Of a stretch of DNA of 43,908 nucleotides, positions 1 through 43,544 are shown piece after piece. Position 1 is the stretch's first letter, and each line of letters opens with the position of its first letter. Made by a program: the position numbers and the translations under genes. The notes under the pieces are model-generated. The model saw only the letters and a list, made by a program, of their open reading frames with translations, did no database searches and was not told the origin of the DNA. This DNA comes from Acidobacteriota bacterium (GTDB lineage Bacteria > Acidobacteriota > Terriglobia > Bryobacterales > Bryobacteraceae), in assembly GCA_025353165.1 (NCBI GenBank), contig JANXRE010000174.1:1-43908 (forward strand), in the 5' to 3' direction.

Positions 1-231
1 GTACACCTCATTACCCGTGAGGTGGCACCCGATCGTATGCGCGTCTACTGAAAAGAGCATTTGCGATGCGGAATTCGGAAGCGGCTGCCTGAAGACGGCG
101 TACGGGCGAATGCAACCGCCGGGCCGAATGAGCCGTCCTTCAGGCAGCCGCTTCCGAATTCCGCATCGCAAATGCTCTTTTCAGTAGACGCGCATACGAT
201 CGGGTGCCACCTCACGGGTAATGAGGTGTAC
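1..231. repeat. 94-bp perfect inverted repeat at window edge
   Basis: Bases 1-94 are the exact reverse complement of 138-231, separated by 43 bases. The right arm holds the first 20 codons of the glycosyltransferase that starts at 172, plus the 34 bases before it. The left arm is the same text inverted, so it is an antisense copy of that N-terminus. The repeat runs to base 1, so the arms may be longer. A perfect fold-back ending at a sequence edge is typical of a chimeric read or assembly fold-back. A genuine recent inverted duplication is the alternative. Confidence 0.9.
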
Positions 232-2090: not shown

Positions 2091-4070
<1,980 letters not shown>

Positions 4071-36504: not shown

Positions 36505-38115
36505 TTACACACCCCAGCAGTAATCTTCTACAGCGCGCTCGATCGATTCGTCCTGCTCCGTGAGACGCATCAACTCCAGCTTGATGGCGTCCAGCAGCGC
36601 AAGCCAGCTTGCCTCGATCACGTTTTCGGAAACGCCGACGGTCGACCAGTTCTTTTTGTGGTCCGACCACTCGACCAGTACGCGGACCTTGGCTGCCGTG
36701 CCTTTTTTGAAATCGAGCACGCGCACTTTGTAATCCGTGAGCCGCACGTTCGCGATCGCGGGATACAGCGGCGTCAGGCATTGCCGCAGGCTCACATCCA
36801 GCGCATTGACCGGACCTTGTCCCGTCGCCGTCGCCGAGTAAACGTGCTCTTCCACCTTCAGCGTGACCGTGGCCGTCGTGAGGGATCCGTACTGCCCGGT
36901 CATGCGCGTCGTCGTGTCGAAACTGATGATCTCGAAGAACTGCACGCCGGGCCGGAGCGCATCGCGCACCAGCAGTTCGAACGTGCCCTCGGCGGCTTCC
37001 AGTTCATAGCCCTCGTACTCCATGTGCTTGATGCGGTCCAGCAGTTCCCGCTTGGCCTGATCGTCGAGCCGCGCGTCGAGCCCGTGCTGCTTCAGCTTGT
37101 AGAGAACGTTGCCGCGTCCCGACAGCTCGCTCAACAGAACCCGCTGACGGTTGCCGATCGCTTCCGGCTGGATGTGTTCGTAGGTCGACGCATCTTTCAG
37201 AACCGCGCTGACGTGAACGCCGCCCTTGTGCGCGAAAGCGCTGCGGCCGACATACGGCTGATCGTTGCGCATCGGGAGATTGGCGAGCTCGGAAATAAAA
37301 CGCGCCACGCTGGTCAGGTTCGGCAGGCTCTCCCGGCCCACTGTGGTGTGGCCCAGTTTTAATTCCAGGTTGGCGATGATGGAACAGAGATTCGCGTTTC
37401 CGCAGCGCTCGCCGTATCCGTTCATGCAGCCCTGCACCTGCGTGAAACCTTCCTCCACCGCCGCCAGCGTATTGGCGACGGCGAGGTCGGAGTCGTTGTG
37501 GCAATGGATGGCGAGCGTTCCGTCGAATCGCTTGCGCACCTCGGAGCAGATCTCCTGCAAGCGCGCGGTGAGCGTGCCGCCGTTGGTGTCGCACAGGCAC
37601 AGCACATCCGCGCCCGCCGACCTCGCCGCCTCCAGCCCCTTCAGCGCGTAAACGGGATTCGCAGTGTAGCCGTCGAAGAAATGCTCGGCGTCGAAAATAA
37701 CTTCCTTGCCGTGCGATTTCAGAAACGCCACGGAATCCGCGATCAACTCGAGGTTCTGCTGTTCGCTGATGCCGAGCGCCCGGTGCACGTGCATGTCCCA
37801 CGTCTTGCCGAAGATCGCGACGGCGGGCGTGCCGGCCTCCACCAGTTCGCGCAGATTCGGATCGGAGTCGGGCGTGTTGCGGGCGAAGCGCGTGGATCCG
37901 AAGGCCGTCAGTTTCGCGCGCTTCAGTTTCAGATCGCGGGCGCGCGTGAAGAACTCGCGGTCCTTTGGGTTCGACCCCGGCCATCCGCCTTCGATGTAGT
38001 CGATGCCAAACTCATCCAGCTTCTGCGCAATGACGAGCTTATCCTCGACGGAGAAGGAGACGGCCTCGCCTTGCGTGCCGTCCCGGAGGGTGGTGTCGAA
38101 CGTGTAGATTCTCAT
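36505..38115 (-). CDS. cimA: (R)-citramalate synthase
   Basis: 536 aa. Condenses pyruvate with acetyl-CoA to citramalate, the first step of the threonine-independent route to 2-oxobutyrate and isoleucine. The start [22 protein letters not shown] and GIDYIEGGWPGSNPKD are typical of CimA rather than LeuA; LCLCDTNGGTL, AIHCHNDSDLAVANTL and GCMNGYGERCGNANL complete the barrel, with a C-terminal regulatory LeuA-dimer-like domain (about residues 400-530). ATG 38115 is used, sharing one base with the ilvC stop (TAATG). It is last in the ilvB-ilvN-ilvC-cimA operon. Confidence 0.92.
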   Translation of the reverse strand: MRIYTFDTTLRDGTQGEAVSFSVEDKLVIAQKLDEFGIDYIEGGWPGSNPKDREFFTRARDLKLKRAKLTAFGSTRFARNTPDSDPNLRELVEAGTPAVAIFGKTWDMHVHRALGISEQQNLELIADSVAFLKSHGKEVIFDAEHFFDGYTANPVYALKGLEAARSAGADVLCLCDTNGGTLTARLQEICSEVRKRFDGTLAIHCHNDSDLAVANTLAAVEEGFTQVQGCMNGYGERCGNANLCSIIANLELKLGHTTVGRESLPNLTSVARFISELANLPMRNDQPYVGRSAFAHKGGVHVSAVLKDASTYEHIQPEAIGNRQRVLLSELSGRGNVLYKLKQHGLDARLDDQAKRELLDRIKHMEYEGYELEAAEGTFELLVRDALRPGVQFFEIISFDTTTRMTGQYGSLTTATVTLKVEEHVYSATATGQGPVNALDVSLRQCLTPLYPAIANVRLTDYKVRVLDFKKGTAAKVRVLVEWSDHKKNWSTVGVSENVIEASWLALLDAIKLELMRLTEQDESIERAVEDYCWGV

Positions 38116-39158
38116 TACTTCGTTGTGGCCAGCGCGGGCGAATCCTGCGGTACGCCGGCCTCCTTCGTCTTTTTCAGGAACGTCATCATTTCGCGAAGCT
38201 CGCGGCCGACCGTTTCGATCGGCTGGTTGCGGGCGGCTTCGCGCATCGCCAGGAACTTGTGGCGTCCGGTCTTGTTCTCCGCCATCCAATCCTTCGCGAA
38301 TTGACCCGACTGGATTTCGCCGAGGATCTTCTTCATCTCGGCGCGAGTCTGTTCGTTCACCAGGCGCTTACCGCGCGTGTAATCGCCGTACTCGGCGGTA
38401 TCGGATACGGAGAAGCGCATGTAGCTGAGGCCGCCTTCGTAGATGAGGTCCACGATGAGCTTCAGCTCGTGCAGGCATTCGAAGTAGGCGATCTCGGGCG
38501 CGTAGCCGGCTTCGGTGAGCGTCTCGAAGCCCGCGCGGATCAGCTCGCTGACGCCGCCGCAGAGAACGGTCTGCTCGCCGAACAGATCGCTTTCGGTCTC
38601 TTCCTTGAAGGTGGTTTCGATAACGCCGGCCTTCAAACAGCCGAGCGCCAAAGCGTATGCGAGCGCTTGGCGCAGCGCGTTGCCCGAGGCGTCCTGATGC
38701 ACGGCGACCAGCGCGGGCACGCCCACGCCTTCGGTGTACAATTCGCGGACGCGATGGCCCGGAGCCTTCGGTGCGATCATCGACACATCGACTCCGGGCG
38801 GCGGCGCGATCTGACCGAAGTGGATGTTGAAGCCGTGCGCGAACATCAGCGTCTTGCCCGGCTTCATATGCGGCGCGATCTCGTTGTTGTAGAGGTCGCC
38901 CTGCATATGGTCCGGCACCAGGACCATGAGGACATCCGCGATGTTCGCGGCCTCGGCGGTGGACAGGACGCGGAGTCCGGCGGCTTCGGCCTTGGCCCAG
39001 TTCTTCGATCCGGCGTACAGGCCGACTACGACCTGCACTCCCGAGTCGCGCAGATTGAGAGCGTGCGCGTGGCCCTGCGATCCGTAGCCGATGATGGCCA
39101 CGGTCTTGTTCTGGAGGAGACTGAGATCGCCGTCTTTCTCGTAATAGCGGTTGGGCAT
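38115..39158 (-). CDS. ilvC: Ketol-acid reductoisomerase
   Basis: 347-aa class I enzyme that converts acetolactate or acetohydroxybutyrate to dihydroxy acids using NAD(P)H. The Rossmann motif is [19 protein letters not shown], the cofactor loop [13 protein letters not shown], the catalytic metal region contains [12 protein letters not shown] and [23 protein letters not shown]. An AAAGGA Shine-Dalgarno precedes the ATG. It lies 18 bases after ilvN and ends overlapping the cimA start. Confidence 0.95.
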
Positions 39159-39176: not shown

Positions 39177-39707
39177 TTATTTAACCGTCGCCGGCTCCGG
39201 TTTTTGAACCGGTGGCGACAGCTTCAGTTTCTTGTGTTCCAGCGAGGCGGCGACCAGTCCCGATCGCGTCACATCGATCTCGCCGTAGGCGCGCATCACG
39301 TCGATGAACTCCTCGACTTTCTCGGAGTCGCCGGTGGCTTCCAGAGCAACGCCTTCCGCGGAGGAGTCGACCACTCGCGCGCCGAAGATCTCGGCTTCTT
39401 TCAAGATGGCCGTGCGGTGCTCCAGCGGCGCCCGCACCCGCAGCAGCAGCAACTCGCGGGCTACCGCCGGCACGTCGGTCAGATCGATGGCCTGCAGCAC
39501 GTTGACCAGCTTGTTCATCTGCTTGATCACCTGGGCGCGCAGCGTCGCGTCGACATCGACGACGATGCTCATCCGCGATAGCGTGGGATCTAGCGTGCGT
39601 GCGACCGTCAGACTTTCGATGTTGTACCCGCGGGCGCTGAGCAGTCCGGTGACACGCAGCAGCGCGCCGGGCTTGTTCTCCAGCAGTAGGGAAATAACTT
39701 GCAGCAT
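39177..39707 (-). CDS. ilvN: Acetolactate synthase regulatory (small) subunit
   Basis: 176 aa, the ACT-type regulatory subunit that binds valine and activates the catalytic subunit. The N-terminal ACT domain reads SLLLENKPGALLRVTGLLSARGYNIESLTV; the second domain has VDSSAEGVALEATGDSEKVEEFIDVMRAYG. The length is normal for the long IlvN/IlvH class. Its ATG shares one base with the ilvB stop (TAATG). Confidence 0.95.
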   Translation of the reverse strand: MLQVISLLLENKPGALLRVTGLLSARGYNIESLTVARTLDPTLSRMSIVVDVDATLRAQVIKQMNKLVNVLQAIDLTDVPAVARELLLLRVRAPLEHRTAILKEAEIFGARVVDSSAEGVALEATGDSEKVEEFIDVMRAYGEIDVTRSGLVAASLEHKKLKLSPPVQKPEPATVK

Positions 39708-41449
39708 TACCTGCTCGCCTCAACCGGTTCCGGCGGGCGAAGAACCATTTCGTAAATTGCGCCGCCGGAGGGAACCATCGGATATACGTTTTCGTACGGC
39801 GACACGCGGACGTTCAAAAGGTAGGGGCCCGGTTCGGCGACGGCGGCTTCCAGTGCCGCTCTGAGGTCGCGCGGGTGCTCGATCGTGCGGCCTTTGAATC
39901 CGTAAGCCCCCGCGAGCTTTTCGGCGTCGGGAAATCCGTCGAGCGTCACGGCCGACAGGCGGTTGTTGTAGAACAGTTCCTGCCACTGCCGGACCATGCC
40001 GAGGTACCCGTTGTTGCTGACGATGATCTTCACCGGCAGGCCATGGTTGGCGATGGTGGCCAGTTCCGGCACGGACATCTGGAATCCGCCGTCGCCGACA
40101 ATTGCGAACACCAGTTTGTCGGGGTTGGCGAATTGCGCGCCAACGGCGGCGGGAAGTCCGAAGCCCATCGATCCGAGACCGCCGGAGTTCAGCCAGAGCC
40201 GCGGCTTGTTAAAACGTATGAACTGCGCGGCCCACATCTGATGCTGGCCGACATCCGACGAAACGATTGCCTCGCCGTTTGAAATGCGGTCGATTTCGGC
40301 CATCAGGTGCTGCGGCTTGATCTCGTCGTCGGAAAACTCGGGAGTGAGCGGGTGCTCCTCTTTCCAACCGTTGACCTGCCCCCACCACGCGCGCCGCGCC
40401 GCGGCGTTCCGGGGCTGCATCTCGTCGCGTGTTTCCAGCAGGAACTTGTTCATCTTGGCGATAACGCGCCTGGCGTCGCCCACGATCGGTAACTCGGGGG
40501 TGCGATTCTTGCCGATCTCCGCGGGATCGATGTCCACGTGGATCACCTCGGCGTGCGGCGCGAAGGCGGCGAGACGGCCGGTGACCCGATCGTCAAAACG
40601 AACGCCGATCGCGATCAACAGGTCCGCGTGCGTCATCCCCATGTTGGCGGCGTACGACCCGTGCATGCCGGGCATGGAGATGAAATTGGGGTGCGTGGAC
40701 GGCAGCGCGCCGAGTCCCATCAGCGTGCAGACCGCCGGTGCGTCCAGAAGTTCCACCAGTTGCCGCAGTTCCTCGGAAGCCTCGCCGTGGATGATCCCGC
40801 CGCCGGCATAAACGAACGGGCGCTCAGCCTCCCACATCATCTGGGCGGCGCGGCGGATCTGGCCGGTGTGGCCTTCCGTGTAGACCTTGTATCCGGGGAG
40901 ATGGATCGAATTGACCGGCGTGTAGTGCCCTTGAGCCTGGAAAATATCCTTTGGGATATCCACCAGGACCGGGCCGGGCCGACCCGACGCAGCCAGGTAA
41001 AACGCCTCATGCAGTACCTGAGGAAGATCCGCTAAGCTCTTGATAAGAAAATTATGTTTGGTGCAGGAACGCGTGATCCCGAAGGTGTCCGCTTCCTGGA
41101 ACGCATCGCTTCCGATGAGCTTGCTGGAAACCTGGCCGGTGAGCGCGACCACCGGGATCGAATCCATGAGGGCGTCCACCAGGCCGGTTACAAGGTTCGT
41201 GGCGCCAGGCCCCGAAGTCGCGCAGCACACTCCGACTCTTCCCGTGGATCGCGCGTAGCCTTCCGCGGCAAAGCAGGCGTTCTGTTCGTGGCGCACCAGG
41301 ACATGCCGGATGGGGTGATCGTACAGGGCATCGTACAGCGGCAGCGTCACGCCTCCGGGGTAGCCGAAGATACAATCGACGCCTTCGCGCACCAGGCATT
41401 CCAACAACATGAGAGCGCCGCTTAAGAGGGGCGCGGTCTGTACCGGCAT
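39707..41449 (-). CDS. ilvB: Acetolactate synthase catalytic (large) subunit
   Basis: 580-aa ThDP enzyme forming acetolactate or acetohydroxybutyrate. Visible are the catalytic Glu region VRHEQNACFAAEGYAR, ATSGPGATNLVTGL, FQEADTFGITRSCTKHNFLI, the FAD-region MLGMHGSYAAN-like PGMHGSYAANM, and the ThDP signature VGDGGFQMSVPEL...NNGYLGMVRQWQ. ATG 41449 is chosen over an earlier ATG because GAGGAG sits 5 bases ahead; that Shine-Dalgarno directly follows the attenuator stem. First structural gene of the operon. Confidence 0.95.
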   Translation of the reverse strand: MPVQTAPLLSGALMLLECLVREGVDCIFGYPGGVTLPLYDALYDHPIRHVLVRHEQNACFAAEGYARSTGRVGVCCATSGPGATNLVTGLVDALMDSIPVVALTGQVSSKLIGSDAFQEADTFGITRSCTKHNFLIKSLADLPQVLHEAFYLAASGRPGPVLVDIPKDIFQAQGHYTPVNSIHLPGYKVYTEGHTGQIRRAAQMMWEAERPFVYAGGGIIHGEASEELRQLVELLDAPAVCTLMGLGALPSTHPNFISMPGMHGSYAANMGMTHADLLIAIGVRFDDRVTGRLAAFAPHAEVIHVDIDPAEIGKNRTPELPIVGDARRVIAKMNKFLLETRDEMQPRNAAARRAWWGQVNGWKEEHPLTPEFSDDEIKPQHLMAEIDRISNGEAIVSSDVGQHQMWAAQFIRFNKPRLWLNSGGLGSMGFGLPAAVGAQFANPDKLVFAIVGDGGFQMSVPELATIANHGLPVKIIVSNNGYLGMVRQWQELFYNNRLSAVTLDGFPDAEKLAGAYGFKGRTIEHPRDLRAALEAAVAEPGPYLLNVRVSPYENVYPMVPSGGAIYEMVLRPPEPVEASR

Positions 41450-41463
41450 GGGTCTCCTCAAAT

Positions 41464-41506
41464 GACAAAGGCCACTGGCTGGGTTGTTCACCCCGCCAGT
41501 GGCCTT
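41464..41506 (-). terminator. Attenuator terminator stem in the ilvB leader
   Basis: A perfect 12-bp stem (41495-41506 with 41468-41479) plus a partly paired loop is followed in the transcript by a moderately U-rich UUUGUCAUUU. It lies between the leader peptide stop and the ilvB Shine-Dalgarno (GAGGAG). The 5' arm (segment 3) can instead pair with segment 2 of the leader, so the stem forms only when the leader is translated freely. Confidence 0.75.
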
Positions 41507-41531
41507 CGTACTTTCTTTCCGATAGGACCGT

Positions 41532-41642
41532 TCAGGCGGGGAAGGCTGAGCCTACCCCAATTCTAATCTGAACGAGTACCTGGGGAACTTTAACAGAAAC
41601 CGCGAAGATTAAGTTGGTAACCGGTTGGGCCAAGCGAATCAT
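41532..41642 (-). CDS. ilv leader peptide, 36 aa
   Basis: ATG 41642 to TGA 41532. The peptide has 7 Val, 4 Ile and 3 Leu among 36 residues (39 percent), with the densest run QVLVQIRIGV (residues 21-30). AGAGA lies ahead of the start as a Shine-Dalgarno. Segment 1 (41558-41551) lies in codons 29-31 and segment 2 (41545-41535) at codons 33-36, immediately before the stop. This is the layout of ilv leader peptides in other bacteria: stalling at branched-chain codons would cover segment 1 and free segment 2. It is not a structural protein. Confidence 0.75.
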   Translation of the reverse strand: MIRLAQPVTNLIFAVSVKVPQVLVQIRIGVGSAFPA

Positions 41643-41659
41643 CACGTTCTCTGCCTATG

Positions 41660-41688
41660 ATAGTACCCTAGCAGCACGGCAAATGCAA
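41660..41688 (-). promoter_or_regulatory. Sigma70-like promoter of the ilvBNC-cimA operon
   Basis: On the minus strand, -35 TTGCAT (41688-41683), a 17-base spacer and -10 TACTAT (41665-41660). The transcription start would be near 41653, about 10 bases before the leader ATG at 41642. No other comparable site was seen between here and ilvB. Confidence 0.65.
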
Positions 41689-41884
41689 TACCGTTTCTGC
41701 ATAACAAAGGTTGATGGTTACATGAGCCCGCGAGCGATCAATGTTCTCCCGGGCCGCTTTTCTCGCTGGTCGGCGGGACGATCTGTCTTATCCATGTTCA
41801 TCAGCTTCGTCATCTGGCTGCCCTTCGCATCCGTCATGGCGGTGTAGGTGGTGTTGCAGTAGGCGACGGGTCGACGACCGCAGC

Positions 41885-42137
41885 CAACTGGGGTCCCCCG
41901 AACTCCAGTCGCGTATCCAAAAGGAGTGGGCTCCCCTCGCCCGCGACGTCGAGGCAAACCTGAACGCCGACCCCGCCGGCCCCATCGCGCAGGCCCTGCT
42001 CGCCACCCGGAGAAGCGGGCCGGCCTGAACAACAGGTGGGCCGACCGCGCCACCTGGCCGCAAAAATTCGAAGGGCCCTGGGACAACCCGAACTTGCAGC
42101 CCTTCATCGCCCGCGCCCTGCGTGATACCCTAGCCAC
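41885..42137 (+). pseudogene. Relic of a MerR/TipAS-type regulator domain
   Basis: The plus strand shows LGSPELQSRIQKEWAPLARD, then NADPAGPIAQALLATR and a stop. In the next frame come GLNNRWADRATWPQKFEGPW and IARALRDTLAT. Together these look like a decayed TipAS domain, the drug-sensing C-terminal half of MerR-family regulators (typical WXXL...DPAGPRAQALA...W...). The DNA-binding half is absent and a frameshift or deletion splits the rest. The region 41689-41884 beside it holds no gene I recognise. The relic runs directly into the start of the DinB gene. Confidence 0.55.
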
Positions 42138-42623
42138 GTGCTGTCCACCCTGCGCCAGTTGCTGGCCTACGAAGCCTGGGCCGACGCCCAACACCTGCAC
42201 GTGCTTTTCATCTACGAGCCGGTGTACGCCAACGAGGGCATCCGCCGCAAGCTTGAGCACATCCACGCCGTCCAGCGCGCCTACCTCGCCATGCTGCGGG
42301 ACCAACCCGCCGATTTCGCGAAACGCAGCGTCCCCTTTCCCACACCCGAGGAGTTGGCTGCGTCCTTCCGCGAATACCACGCCGCCATTCGCGAATTCGC
42401 CGCCTCGTGGTCCGAACCCTGGCTCGTCCGGCCGCTCCCCATCGAGTGGTTCACGAACAACACCCCGACCCGCGGCGAGGCGCTCCTTCAGGTCCTCCTG
42501 CACGGCCAATTCCATCGCGGCCAGAACGCCTCGCGCATGCACCACCTCGGCTGGAAACCGCCCACCACGGATTTCGTGCTGTGGATCGACAAGGGGCAGC
42601 CCGAGCCCGACTGGCCGCACTAA
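42138..42623 (+). CDS. DinB-family protein
   Basis: 161 aa, start GTG 42138. A four-helix DinB bundle: the first helix has LLAYEAWADAQ, metal ligands fit LEHIHAVQRAYL and LHGQFHRGQNASRMHHLG. It is followed with no gap by the GDP-fucose synthase gene (TAA then ATG). Distinct from the DinB protein at 25172. Function unknown. Confidence 0.85.
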   Translation: MLSTLRQLLAYEAWADAQHLHVLFIYEPVYANEGIRRKLEHIHAVQRAYLAMLRDQPADFAKRSVPFPTPEELAASFREYHAAIREFAASWSEPWLVRPLPIEWFTNNTPTRGEALLQVLLHGQFHRGQNASRMHHLGWKPPTTDFVLWIDKGQPEPDWPH

Positions 42624-43544
42624 ATGGAAACTGCCAGTTCCATCTATGTCGCCGGCCACAACGGCCTCGCCGGATCGGCCATCGTGCGCGCCCTCCGACG
42701 CCTCGGCCATAACAATCTCATCCTGCGCGCCCGCGCCGAGCTCGACCTGTGCGACGCCGCGGCAGTGAACGCGTTCTTCGCCGCCGAGCGCCCCGAATAC
42801 GTTTTCCTCGCTGCCGCCAAGGTCGGTGGAATCCTGGCCAACAGCACCTGGCCGGCGGACTTCCTCCGCGACAATCTCGCCATTCAGATCAACGTGATCG
42901 ACGCCGCCTGGCGCAACGGATGCCGCAAGCTCGAGTTCCTCGGCTCCTCCTGCATCTACCCCAAATTCGCGCCGCAGCCGATCCGCGAAGAATCGATGCT
43001 GACCGGCGAACTCGAGCCCACCAACGAGTGGTACGCCGTGGCCAAAATCGCGGGCATCAAAATGGCCCAGGCGTACCGCAAGCAGCACGGCTTTAACGCC
43101 ATCAGCCTGATGCCGACCAACCTGTACGGCCCGGGCGATCGCTTCGATCCCGCATCCTCCCACGTCCTCCCAGCCATGATTCGCAAATTCCACGAAGCGA
43201 AGACCGAAGGCCGCCAGCAGGTGGTGTTATGGGGCACGGGAACGCCCCGCCGCGAGTTCCTGCACGTGGACGACCTGGCCGAAGCGGCGCTGCTGCTCAT
43301 GCAGAAGTACGACTCCCCCGAAATCATCAACGTAGGCACTGGCGAGGATTTGACGATCCGCGAACTGGCCGGGCTGATCGGCGAGGCAGTCGGCTTCACC
43401 GGCACGATCGCCTACGACGCCACCAAGCCGGACGGCACGCCCAGGAAGCTGCTGGACGTCACCCGCCTGAAAGCCACCGGCTGGACCCCAAAAATCCCCT
43501 TGCGAGAAGGCATCGCCGAAACCTACCGCTGGTACCTAACCTGA
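42624..43544 (+). CDS. fcl: GDP-L-fucose synthase
   Basis: 306-aa extended SDR that epimerises and reduces GDP-4-keto-6-deoxymannose to GDP-L-fucose with NADPH. Seen: YVAGHNGLAGSAIVRAL (cofactor motif), LAAAKVGGI, the active-site GSSCIYP and NEWYAVAKIAG (Tyr and Lys of the triad), TNLYGPGDRFD and the typical RREFLHVDDLA. It provides fucose for surface glycans, consistent with the polysaccharide genes at the other end of the window, though no GDP-mannose dehydratase is present here. ATG 42624 follows dinB without a gap. Confidence 0.92.
   Translation: METASSIYVAGHNGLAGSAIVRALRRLGHNNLILRARAELDLCDAAAVNAFFAAERPEYVFLAAAKVGGILANSTWPADFLRDNLAIQINVIDAAWRNGCRKLEFLGSSCIYPKFAPQPIREESMLTGELEPTNEWYAVAKIAGIKMAQAYRKQHGFNAISLMPTNLYGPGDRFDPASSHVLPAMIRKFHEAKTEGRQQVVLWGTGTPRREFLHVDDLAEAALLLMQKYDSPEIINVGTGEDLTIRELAGLIGEAVGFTGTIAYDATKPDGTPRKLLDVTRLKATGWTPKIPLREGIAETYRWYLT

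Follow-up and report, generated by a model that had tools for sequence, protein, structure and literature searches.

A predicted ribosome-mediated attenuator upstream of ilvBNC-cimA in the order Bryobacterales

The DNA upstream of ilvB in the window (by which we mean the whole stretch of 43,908 nucleotides analyzed, from a member of the Bryobacteraceae in the phylum Acidobacteriota) very probably encodes a ribosome-mediated transcription attenuator for branched-chain amino acid synthesis, with a regulatory response that we predict by comparing sequences across the order. A covariance model of the element matches 105 of the 120 genomes searched in the order Bryobacterales, and the parts of the element, their conservation, the partner specificity of their pairing, and a pronounced codon bias in the leader peptide can all be read directly from the aligned sites. 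The mechanism itself would be classical. What is new is an RNA family that finds no match in Rfam 15, and the newest side of that family would be an apparent division of its amino acid specificity between two genes in one clade.

Parts of the element in the window

The element lies on the minus strand ahead of the ilvB gene. A preliminary description of this DNA had placed there a promoter (TTGCAT-17-TACTAT), a leader reading frame of 36 codons with 14 for valine, isoleucine, or leucine, and four RNA segments, the first of them in codons 29 to 31; a base-by-base check on the minus strand found each of these exactly where it had been put. The description had overlooked a further helix that encloses the leader stop codon. 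The parts are as follows.

41688-41683, minus strand: promoter -35 element, TTGCAT, checked base by base
41665-41660, minus strand: promoter -10 element, TACTAT, 17 nt from the -35 element
41645, minus strand: alternative start (GTG) of the leader ORF
41642 (ATG) to 41534-41532 (TGA), minus strand: leader ORF, MIRLAQPVTNLIFAVSVKVPQVLVQIRIGVGSAFPA, 36 codons, 14 Val/Ile/Leu
41574-41568 (CGTTCAG) with 41535-41529 (CTGAACG), minus strand: outer helix, enclosing the leader stop codon
41558-41551, minus strand: segment 1, GGGGTAGG, codons 29-31, partner of segment 2
41545-41535, minus strand: segment 2, CCTTCCCCGCC
41541-41535, minus strand: conserved core of segment 2, CCCCGCC, the final sense codons of the leader
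41507-41491, minus strand: segment 3, GAAGGCCACTGGCGGGG
41497-41491, minus strand: core of segment 3, GGCGGGG, partner of segment 2
41479-41468, minus strand: segment 4, GCCAGTGGCCTT, putative terminator 3' arm, forming a 12-bp stem with 41506-41495 and followed by an imperfect U-tract
39707..41449, minus strand: ilvB, acetolactate synthase large subunit (TIGR00118, E 4.2e-236)
39177..39707, minus strand: ilvN, acetolactate synthase small subunit (NF008864, E 6.3e-52)
38115..39158, minus strand: ilvC, ketol-acid reductoisomerase (NF004017, E 8.5e-166)
36505..38103 (start approximate), minus strand: cimA, citramalate synthase (TIGR00977, E 1.6e-207)

The ilvB gene starts at ATG 41449, preceded by GAGGAG, and the stem between segments 3 and 4 is, as previously described, a perfect one of 12 bp ahead of this Shine-Dalgarno sequence. 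Together with its U-tract it has the sequence form of an intrinsic terminator in front of the first structural gene, the tract in the window being imperfect (TTTGTCATTT, longest run 3). A generic promoter and terminator scan listed neither the promoter nor the terminator of the window. The 216-nt leader region folds to -89.9 kcal/mol, compared to -63.9 (standard deviation, 4.53) for dinucleotide shuffles (z = -5.74), and none of 200 shuffles was as good. The codon content of the window leader is weak by itself (14 of 35 Val/Ile/Leu, P = 0.02 against 23.4% in the downstream genes), so the weight of the case rests on conservation.

Two alternative pairings between segments 2 and 3 had been proposed. 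The pairing of CCCCGCC with GGCGGGG is conserved, and that of GCCUUC with GAAGGC, which the nearest relative (G001, same genus) does not keep, reading GCTGTC and AAAGGC instead, was rejected.

Upstream of the element, on the plus strand, positions 42138-42620 match DinB (Pfam PF05163). The plus-strand frames 41741-42025 and 41926-42765, which overlap or lie upstream of the DinB match, matched nothing; the frames across 41741-42620 are perhaps one frameshifted gene.

Conservation, leader codons, and partner-specific pairing

The covariance model was built from 14 of 19 orthologous upstream regions, the five rows from genus g14 being excluded. The first search gave IlvB-type matches at E ≤ 0.001 in all 21 genomes, the best one in G013 (8.5e-40) being no orthologue. 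A stop-terminated leader is present in 18 of the 19 orthologous regions read, and L015, from genus g14, has lost the stop. The conservation of leader codons and stem pairs for which the preliminary description had proposed to look is found in most genomes of the order that were searched. All 100 sites have a leader ORF whose end falls at a homologous position, with an identical model offset in 97 of them. The model failed to match in 15 of the 120 genomes, namely, 10 in genus g14, G013, and 4 members of the window's own family. By eye, the element can be made out in three of the g14 genomes (G014, G017, and G018), and G019 has it in degraded form. Absence in the four family members says little, because three of them (G079, G085, and G091) yielded no IlvB at E ≤ 1e-200 and ilvB is truncated by the contig end in the fourth (G099).

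Judged by eye, leader and terminator have apparently been lost in G108, in G113, before the ilvB of G063, and in a named metagenome-assembled genome (L032). A TTGCAT promoter-like sequence is retained, with no branched-chain leader visible before ilvB, in L266 and L267 (genus g44), in L268 (G063), and in L032, which is assigned to Bryobacterales. In genus g14 (L014, L015, L017, and L019) leader and stems are recognizable, the U-tract is poor, and the branched-chain codon content is low; these copies possibly have a different or decaying mode. Ten more weak model matches were seen inside the order, and only one of them (L285) shows a branched-chain leader by eye.

A phylum-wide search gave matches at E ≤ 0.01 in 25 of 297 genomes, three of them from the window's own family. 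A set of named genomes contributed 80 ilvB-type loci, including 4 close relatives, of which L031 and L034 come without upstream DNA. L033, from a named Acidobacteriia metagenome-assembled genome, matches the model at E 1.8e-21; among the other 79 loci nothing fell under E 0.5, the reverse strand of L033 aside.

Gene context was counted for 100 fetched sites, 1 of 101 being omitted. The ilvBNC-cimA set named in the preliminary description follows on the same strand in 86 sites, ilvBNC without cimA in 6 (L174 and L223 among them reach the contig end), ilvB alone in 1 (at a contig end), cimA alone in 6, and none of these four genes in 1. The last site (L260; match 3435-3547, minus strand, G003) stands before an AHAS-small-subunit-like ACT protein, which is followed by ispD, and the weaker extra copy L285 in G009 (E 1.2e-4) likewise stands before another AHAS small-subunit gene. 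Between the element and the beginning of the ilvB match lie 5 to 176 nt, or 648 nt in the case of a partial match.

The promoter pattern noted in the window recurs as TTGCAT-15..20-TANNNT in 82 of 100 sites, with a 17-nt spacer in 72 (0.6% in a mononucleotide-shuffle control), and the conserved form TTGCAT-N17-TANNNT is often extended to TTGCATTT. TTGCAT is absent from the searched stretch at all seven sites that do not precede ilvB. In 31 of the 82 promoter-bearing sites the leader's first in-frame start codon follows the -10 element at a distance of 6 or 7 nt; transcription there would begin so close by that the start codon falls at +1 or +2, which would make the mRNA leaderless. In the window the distance from the -10 element is 14 nt (GTG) or 17 nt (ATG). 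At the other end of the element, 71 of 100 sites (the window is not one of them) have a run of at least 5 T after the 3:4 stem, and 95 have a run of at least 4.

Across sites the leaders consist of 56% Val/Ile/Leu codons, compared to 23% in the downstream genes, and the choice of synonymous codons differs as well. GTA makes up 54% of valine codons in leaders versus 6% in downstream genes, ATT 66% versus 24% of its codon family, and CTT plus CTC 77% versus 34% of theirs. Over codons -5 to -22 (counted back from the stop) of 93 ilvB sites, the leader frame holds 934 Val/Ile/Leu among 1,674 codons and no stop, compared to 369 and 80 Val/Ile/Leu and 204 and 28 stops in the other two frames. At sites with rival stops no more than 3 nt from the expected offset, the frame richer in branched-chain codons had been taken as the leader. 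The frequency of Val/Ile/Leu in the 93 leaders is 0.90 at -5, 0.49 at -6, 0.92 at -7, 0.32 at -8, 0.89 at -9, and 0.72 at -10, then 0.52 to 0.66 from -11 to -17, and 0.24 to 0.32 from -20 to -24. Codon -5 is GTA in 74 of the 93 and ATT in 4, and in the window (41549-41547) it is serine. Attenuators are predicted to favor codons read by the tRNAs that are the first to become uncharged, a prediction for which the prevalence of GUA, AUU, and CUU/CUC in these leaders is relevant.

Pairing was assessed by a swap test, in which the duplex energies of a site's own partners are compared with those of partners swapped between sites, the segments being set from the stop codon and from the terminator start given by the model. 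In 41 genus representatives the 2:3 pairing had z = -8.0 (0 of 5,000 permutations), 3:4 had z = -10.2 (0 of 5,000), and 1:2 had z = -3.2 (1 of 5,000); the permutations do not keep phylogeny. The control combinations 1:3 (z = -0.5) and 2:4 (z = 0.1) were null, and 1:4 was not (z = -2.0; 119 of 5,000). With 89 distinct sites the values were -11.8 for 2:3, -14.1 for 3:4, and -6.6 for 1:2, and 0.2, 0.4, and -3.3 for the controls 1:3, 2:4, and 1:4. That 1:3 and 2:4 came out null speaks against relatedness alone as the source of the pairing signal. The swap test thus recovers the mutually exclusive 1:2, 2:3, and 3:4 pairings of a classical attenuator, all three of which had been claimed from the window. 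It also supports the overlooked helix between the leader and the linker after the stop (z = -4.5, 0 of 5,000, in the 41 representatives; z = -9.1 in all 100 sites); among the six cimA sites alone that helix gave no such signal (z = -0.9; 1,051 of 5,000).

Column-wise counts are uneven. Pairing reaches 95.6% in the 3:4 stem, where 86 double-change cells compare with 24.4 in shuffles. The 2:3 pairing, in the alignment fitted by the model, is 81.2% paired with a covariation score above all 500 shuffles, and its double-change pairs were reached by 75 of the 500; on some measures, columns slid against each other equal or exceed it (82.7% paired at +3; at +1, 22 double-change cells versus 14). The 1:2 pairing is mixed, at 67.0% paired with double-change pairs reached by 432 of 500 shuffles, and slid columns give 68.1% paired at +2 and 20 double-change cells at -2 versus 13. 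Register shifts may account for part of these weak counts. Because the column-wise 2:3 and 1:2 counts are weak, support for pairing rests on the swap test, which is free of register. Compensatory variants of the 2:3 core do occur: CCTCGCC with GGCGAGG (3 sites), GCCCGCC with GGCGGGC (5 sites), and CGCCGCC with GGCGGCG (2 sites).

Ribosome position, proposed mechanism, and rival explanations

The preliminary description had argued that a stalled ribosome would favor 2:3, and a ribosome-position model agrees over a defined range. With the leading edge assumed to lie 12 nt past the first base of the A-site codon, all 93 ilvB sites have a modeled 2:3 probability above 0.5 when the A site is at any codon from -6 to -11, and none of the 93 does when it lies anywhere from -5 to the stop; upstream of -11, the 1:2 pairing competes. 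The range includes the top Val/Ile/Leu positions -7 and -9 and, in the window, Ile26, Ile28, and Val30. It excludes codon -5, which holds the most conserved valine codon and where a stalled ribosome should mask segment 2, a misfit to the model. Codon -8, inside the range, also speaks against the attenuator reading with its Val/Ile/Leu frequency of 0.32. Our guesses are that codon -5 has a timing role or that the leading edge is nearer than 12 nt. Codon -5 apart, a stalled ribosome would in this model cover segment 1 and free segment 2, and a ribosome at the stop would cover segment 2.

From these features we infer the following behavior in the cell. Transcription from the conserved promoter would yield an mRNA with the leader peptide as its first reading frame and little or no 5' UTR. 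With ample charged valine and isoleucine (and perhaps leucine) tRNA, the ribosome would reach the stop codon and cover segment 2, the 3:4 terminator would form, and transcription would end before ilvB. When charged tRNA is scarce, the ribosome would stall with roughly codons -7 to -11 (counted back from the stop) in its A site, covering segment 1 and leaving segment 2 free, so that CCCCGCC pairs with GGCGGGG, no terminator forms, and ilvBNC-cimA is transcribed. Without a ribosome, 1:2 and the outer helix would hold segment 2 and 3:4 would form, a default-off state.

Three other explanations deserve weighing against attenuation. The hairpins might instead act on mRNA decay or on the access of ribosomes to ilvB, the 3:4 stem being no working terminator; the imperfect U-tract of the window, the lack of a good U-tract in four of the five g14 copies, and the report that mutating candidate regulatory codons before ilvB in Streptomyces coelicolor had no effect (PMC1262725, according to its available text) speak in its favor. 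We nonetheless regard it as unlikely, as the window stem ends before the ilvB Shine-Dalgarno sequence, the spacing between element and ilvB varies widely, and the longer T runs follow the stem in most sites. Still less probable is a plain constitutive terminator beside a chance reading frame, with no regulatory switch. The strong stem and the modest codon statistic of the window leader would suit such a terminator; the partner-specific 2:3 and 1:2 pairing, the codon bias, the homologous stop, and the presence of a separate copy before cimA would not.

We give just as little credence to direct sensing of a ligand or tRNA by a riboswitch or T-box, the leader ORF being incidental. Some ilvB genes are indeed placed under ppGpp riboswitches in the available text of one paper (PMC10272879), yet the conserved features here are codons and alternative stems, and a search of the window with the 4,227 families of Rfam 15, among them T-boxes, riboswitches, and known leaders, gave no match at gathering score. 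At E ≤ 1, the loci of nine relatives gave only two Rfam matches, both far under their gathering scores. Ribosome-mediated attenuation remains our preferred reading of the element.

Divided specificity and relation to known systems

The six lone cimA sites (L209, L219, L225, L236, L246, and L248) belong to genera g9, g45, and g29. Four genomes (G009, G116, G119, and G090) each have an ilvBNC site without cimA plus a separate cimA site; in G063 the leader before ilvB is gone, and in G069 a search at E ≤ 1e-200 gave no IlvB. Because the IlvB proteins of the four split genomes form one clade (support of 0.999 in a tree of 92 sequences), the split of the operon looks, on this phylogeny, like one event kept in three genera.

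The leaders of the separated genes differ in composition. In the last 22 codons the mean numbers of Val, Ile, and Leu are 5.4, 3.6, and 1.6 in fused ilvB leaders (n = 89), 5.3, 0.8, and 2.8 in split ilvB leaders (n = 4), and 0.8, 4.2, and 4.3 in cimA leaders (n = 6). All four split ilvB leaders have at most one isoleucine codon, compared to 5 of 89 fused leaders with one or none, and all six cimA leaders have at most one valine codon, compared to a minimum of 2 in fused ilvB leaders; codon -5 is ATT in six of six cimA leaders. In the split clade the cimA leader would have become an Ile/Leu leader, with AUU at -5, and the ilvB leader a Val/Leu leader. We think it reasonably likely that the attenuator is a module copied between genes, with its amino acid specificity recoded for the gene it controls, and that cimA kept or gained its own copy when sensing was divided. 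The split clade is a natural experiment in which Val-type and Ile-type leaders share one RNA design in the same genome, and it would let one test which leader codons set specificity.

Similar arrangements occur elsewhere in the phylum. The weak matches outside the window's family amount to 22 loci, of which 17 were read. Seven stand before ilv genes (L143, L146, L148, L149, L153, L160, and L163), with an ilvN-like first gene in L143, L146, and L148 and pheA (prephenate dehydratase) preceding ilvB in L163; the other 10 were judged by eye to be ordinary terminators or unclear. An IlvB search of 80 phylum genomes at E ≤ 1e-170 gave nine non-own loci, three with leader and stem (L275, L277, and L282) and six with none by eye (L274, L276, and L278 to L281). 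In these 7 and 3 loci, 10 chosen for a visible leader and hence not a rate, the best duplex that the leader end forms with the terminator region encloses the leader stop or ends within a few bases of it; the TAG stop of L277 lies opposite CTA, and TGA stops lie opposite TCA. With the stop inside or adjoining the antiterminator arm, reaching it may well in these groups be the off signal itself.

Leader-peptide attenuation is known in Proteobacteria, Actinobacteria, and some Firmicutes, and most of the searched genomes of one order can now be seen to carry a candidate attenuator before an operon for valine and, via citramalate, isoleucine. A 2010 study by Lopatovskaya et al. could contain predictions for Acidobacteria. 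Our literature search, which covered titles and the openings of abstracts and took in few subscription papers, found no description of this element.

In the enterobacterial ilvGMEDA and ilvBN attenuators, a ribosome stalled on branched-chain codons chooses between 2:3 and 3:4, the choice we propose here. The operons and sequences differ, and in Bryobacterales the final leader codons are themselves segment 2 and cimA belongs to the operon. The ilvB-OMG and Leptospira ilvB motifs are likewise ilvB-associated RNA motifs with upstream reading frames rich in branched-chain codons (PMC10272879); the window has no Rfam match at gathering score. A close parallel in the available text of two reports (PMC11857589, PMC10272879) is the ilvBNC attenuator of Corynebacterium glutamicum, or ilvB-II motif, which shares the operon core, a short branched-chain leader, an anti-antiterminator, antiterminator, and terminator, and control codons that include a conserved GUA. 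Its transcription start adjoins the leader start codon, as would be the case in the 31 leaderless-type sites here, and the same report stresses the short distance from the control codons to the switching bases (PMC11857589). It differs in phylum and in leader peptide (15 residues in C. glutamicum), and what could be consulted of these reports mentions neither cimA nor a cimA copy (PMC11857589, PMC10272879). Actinobacterial ilvB leader peptides more broadly are short reading frames with runs of Ile, Val, and Leu before ilvB and a terminator, and the available text describes their codons as overlapping the terminator, with an unclear mode of action (PMC1262725); in the element described here, by contrast, the antiterminator and anti-antiterminator pairings have comparative support.
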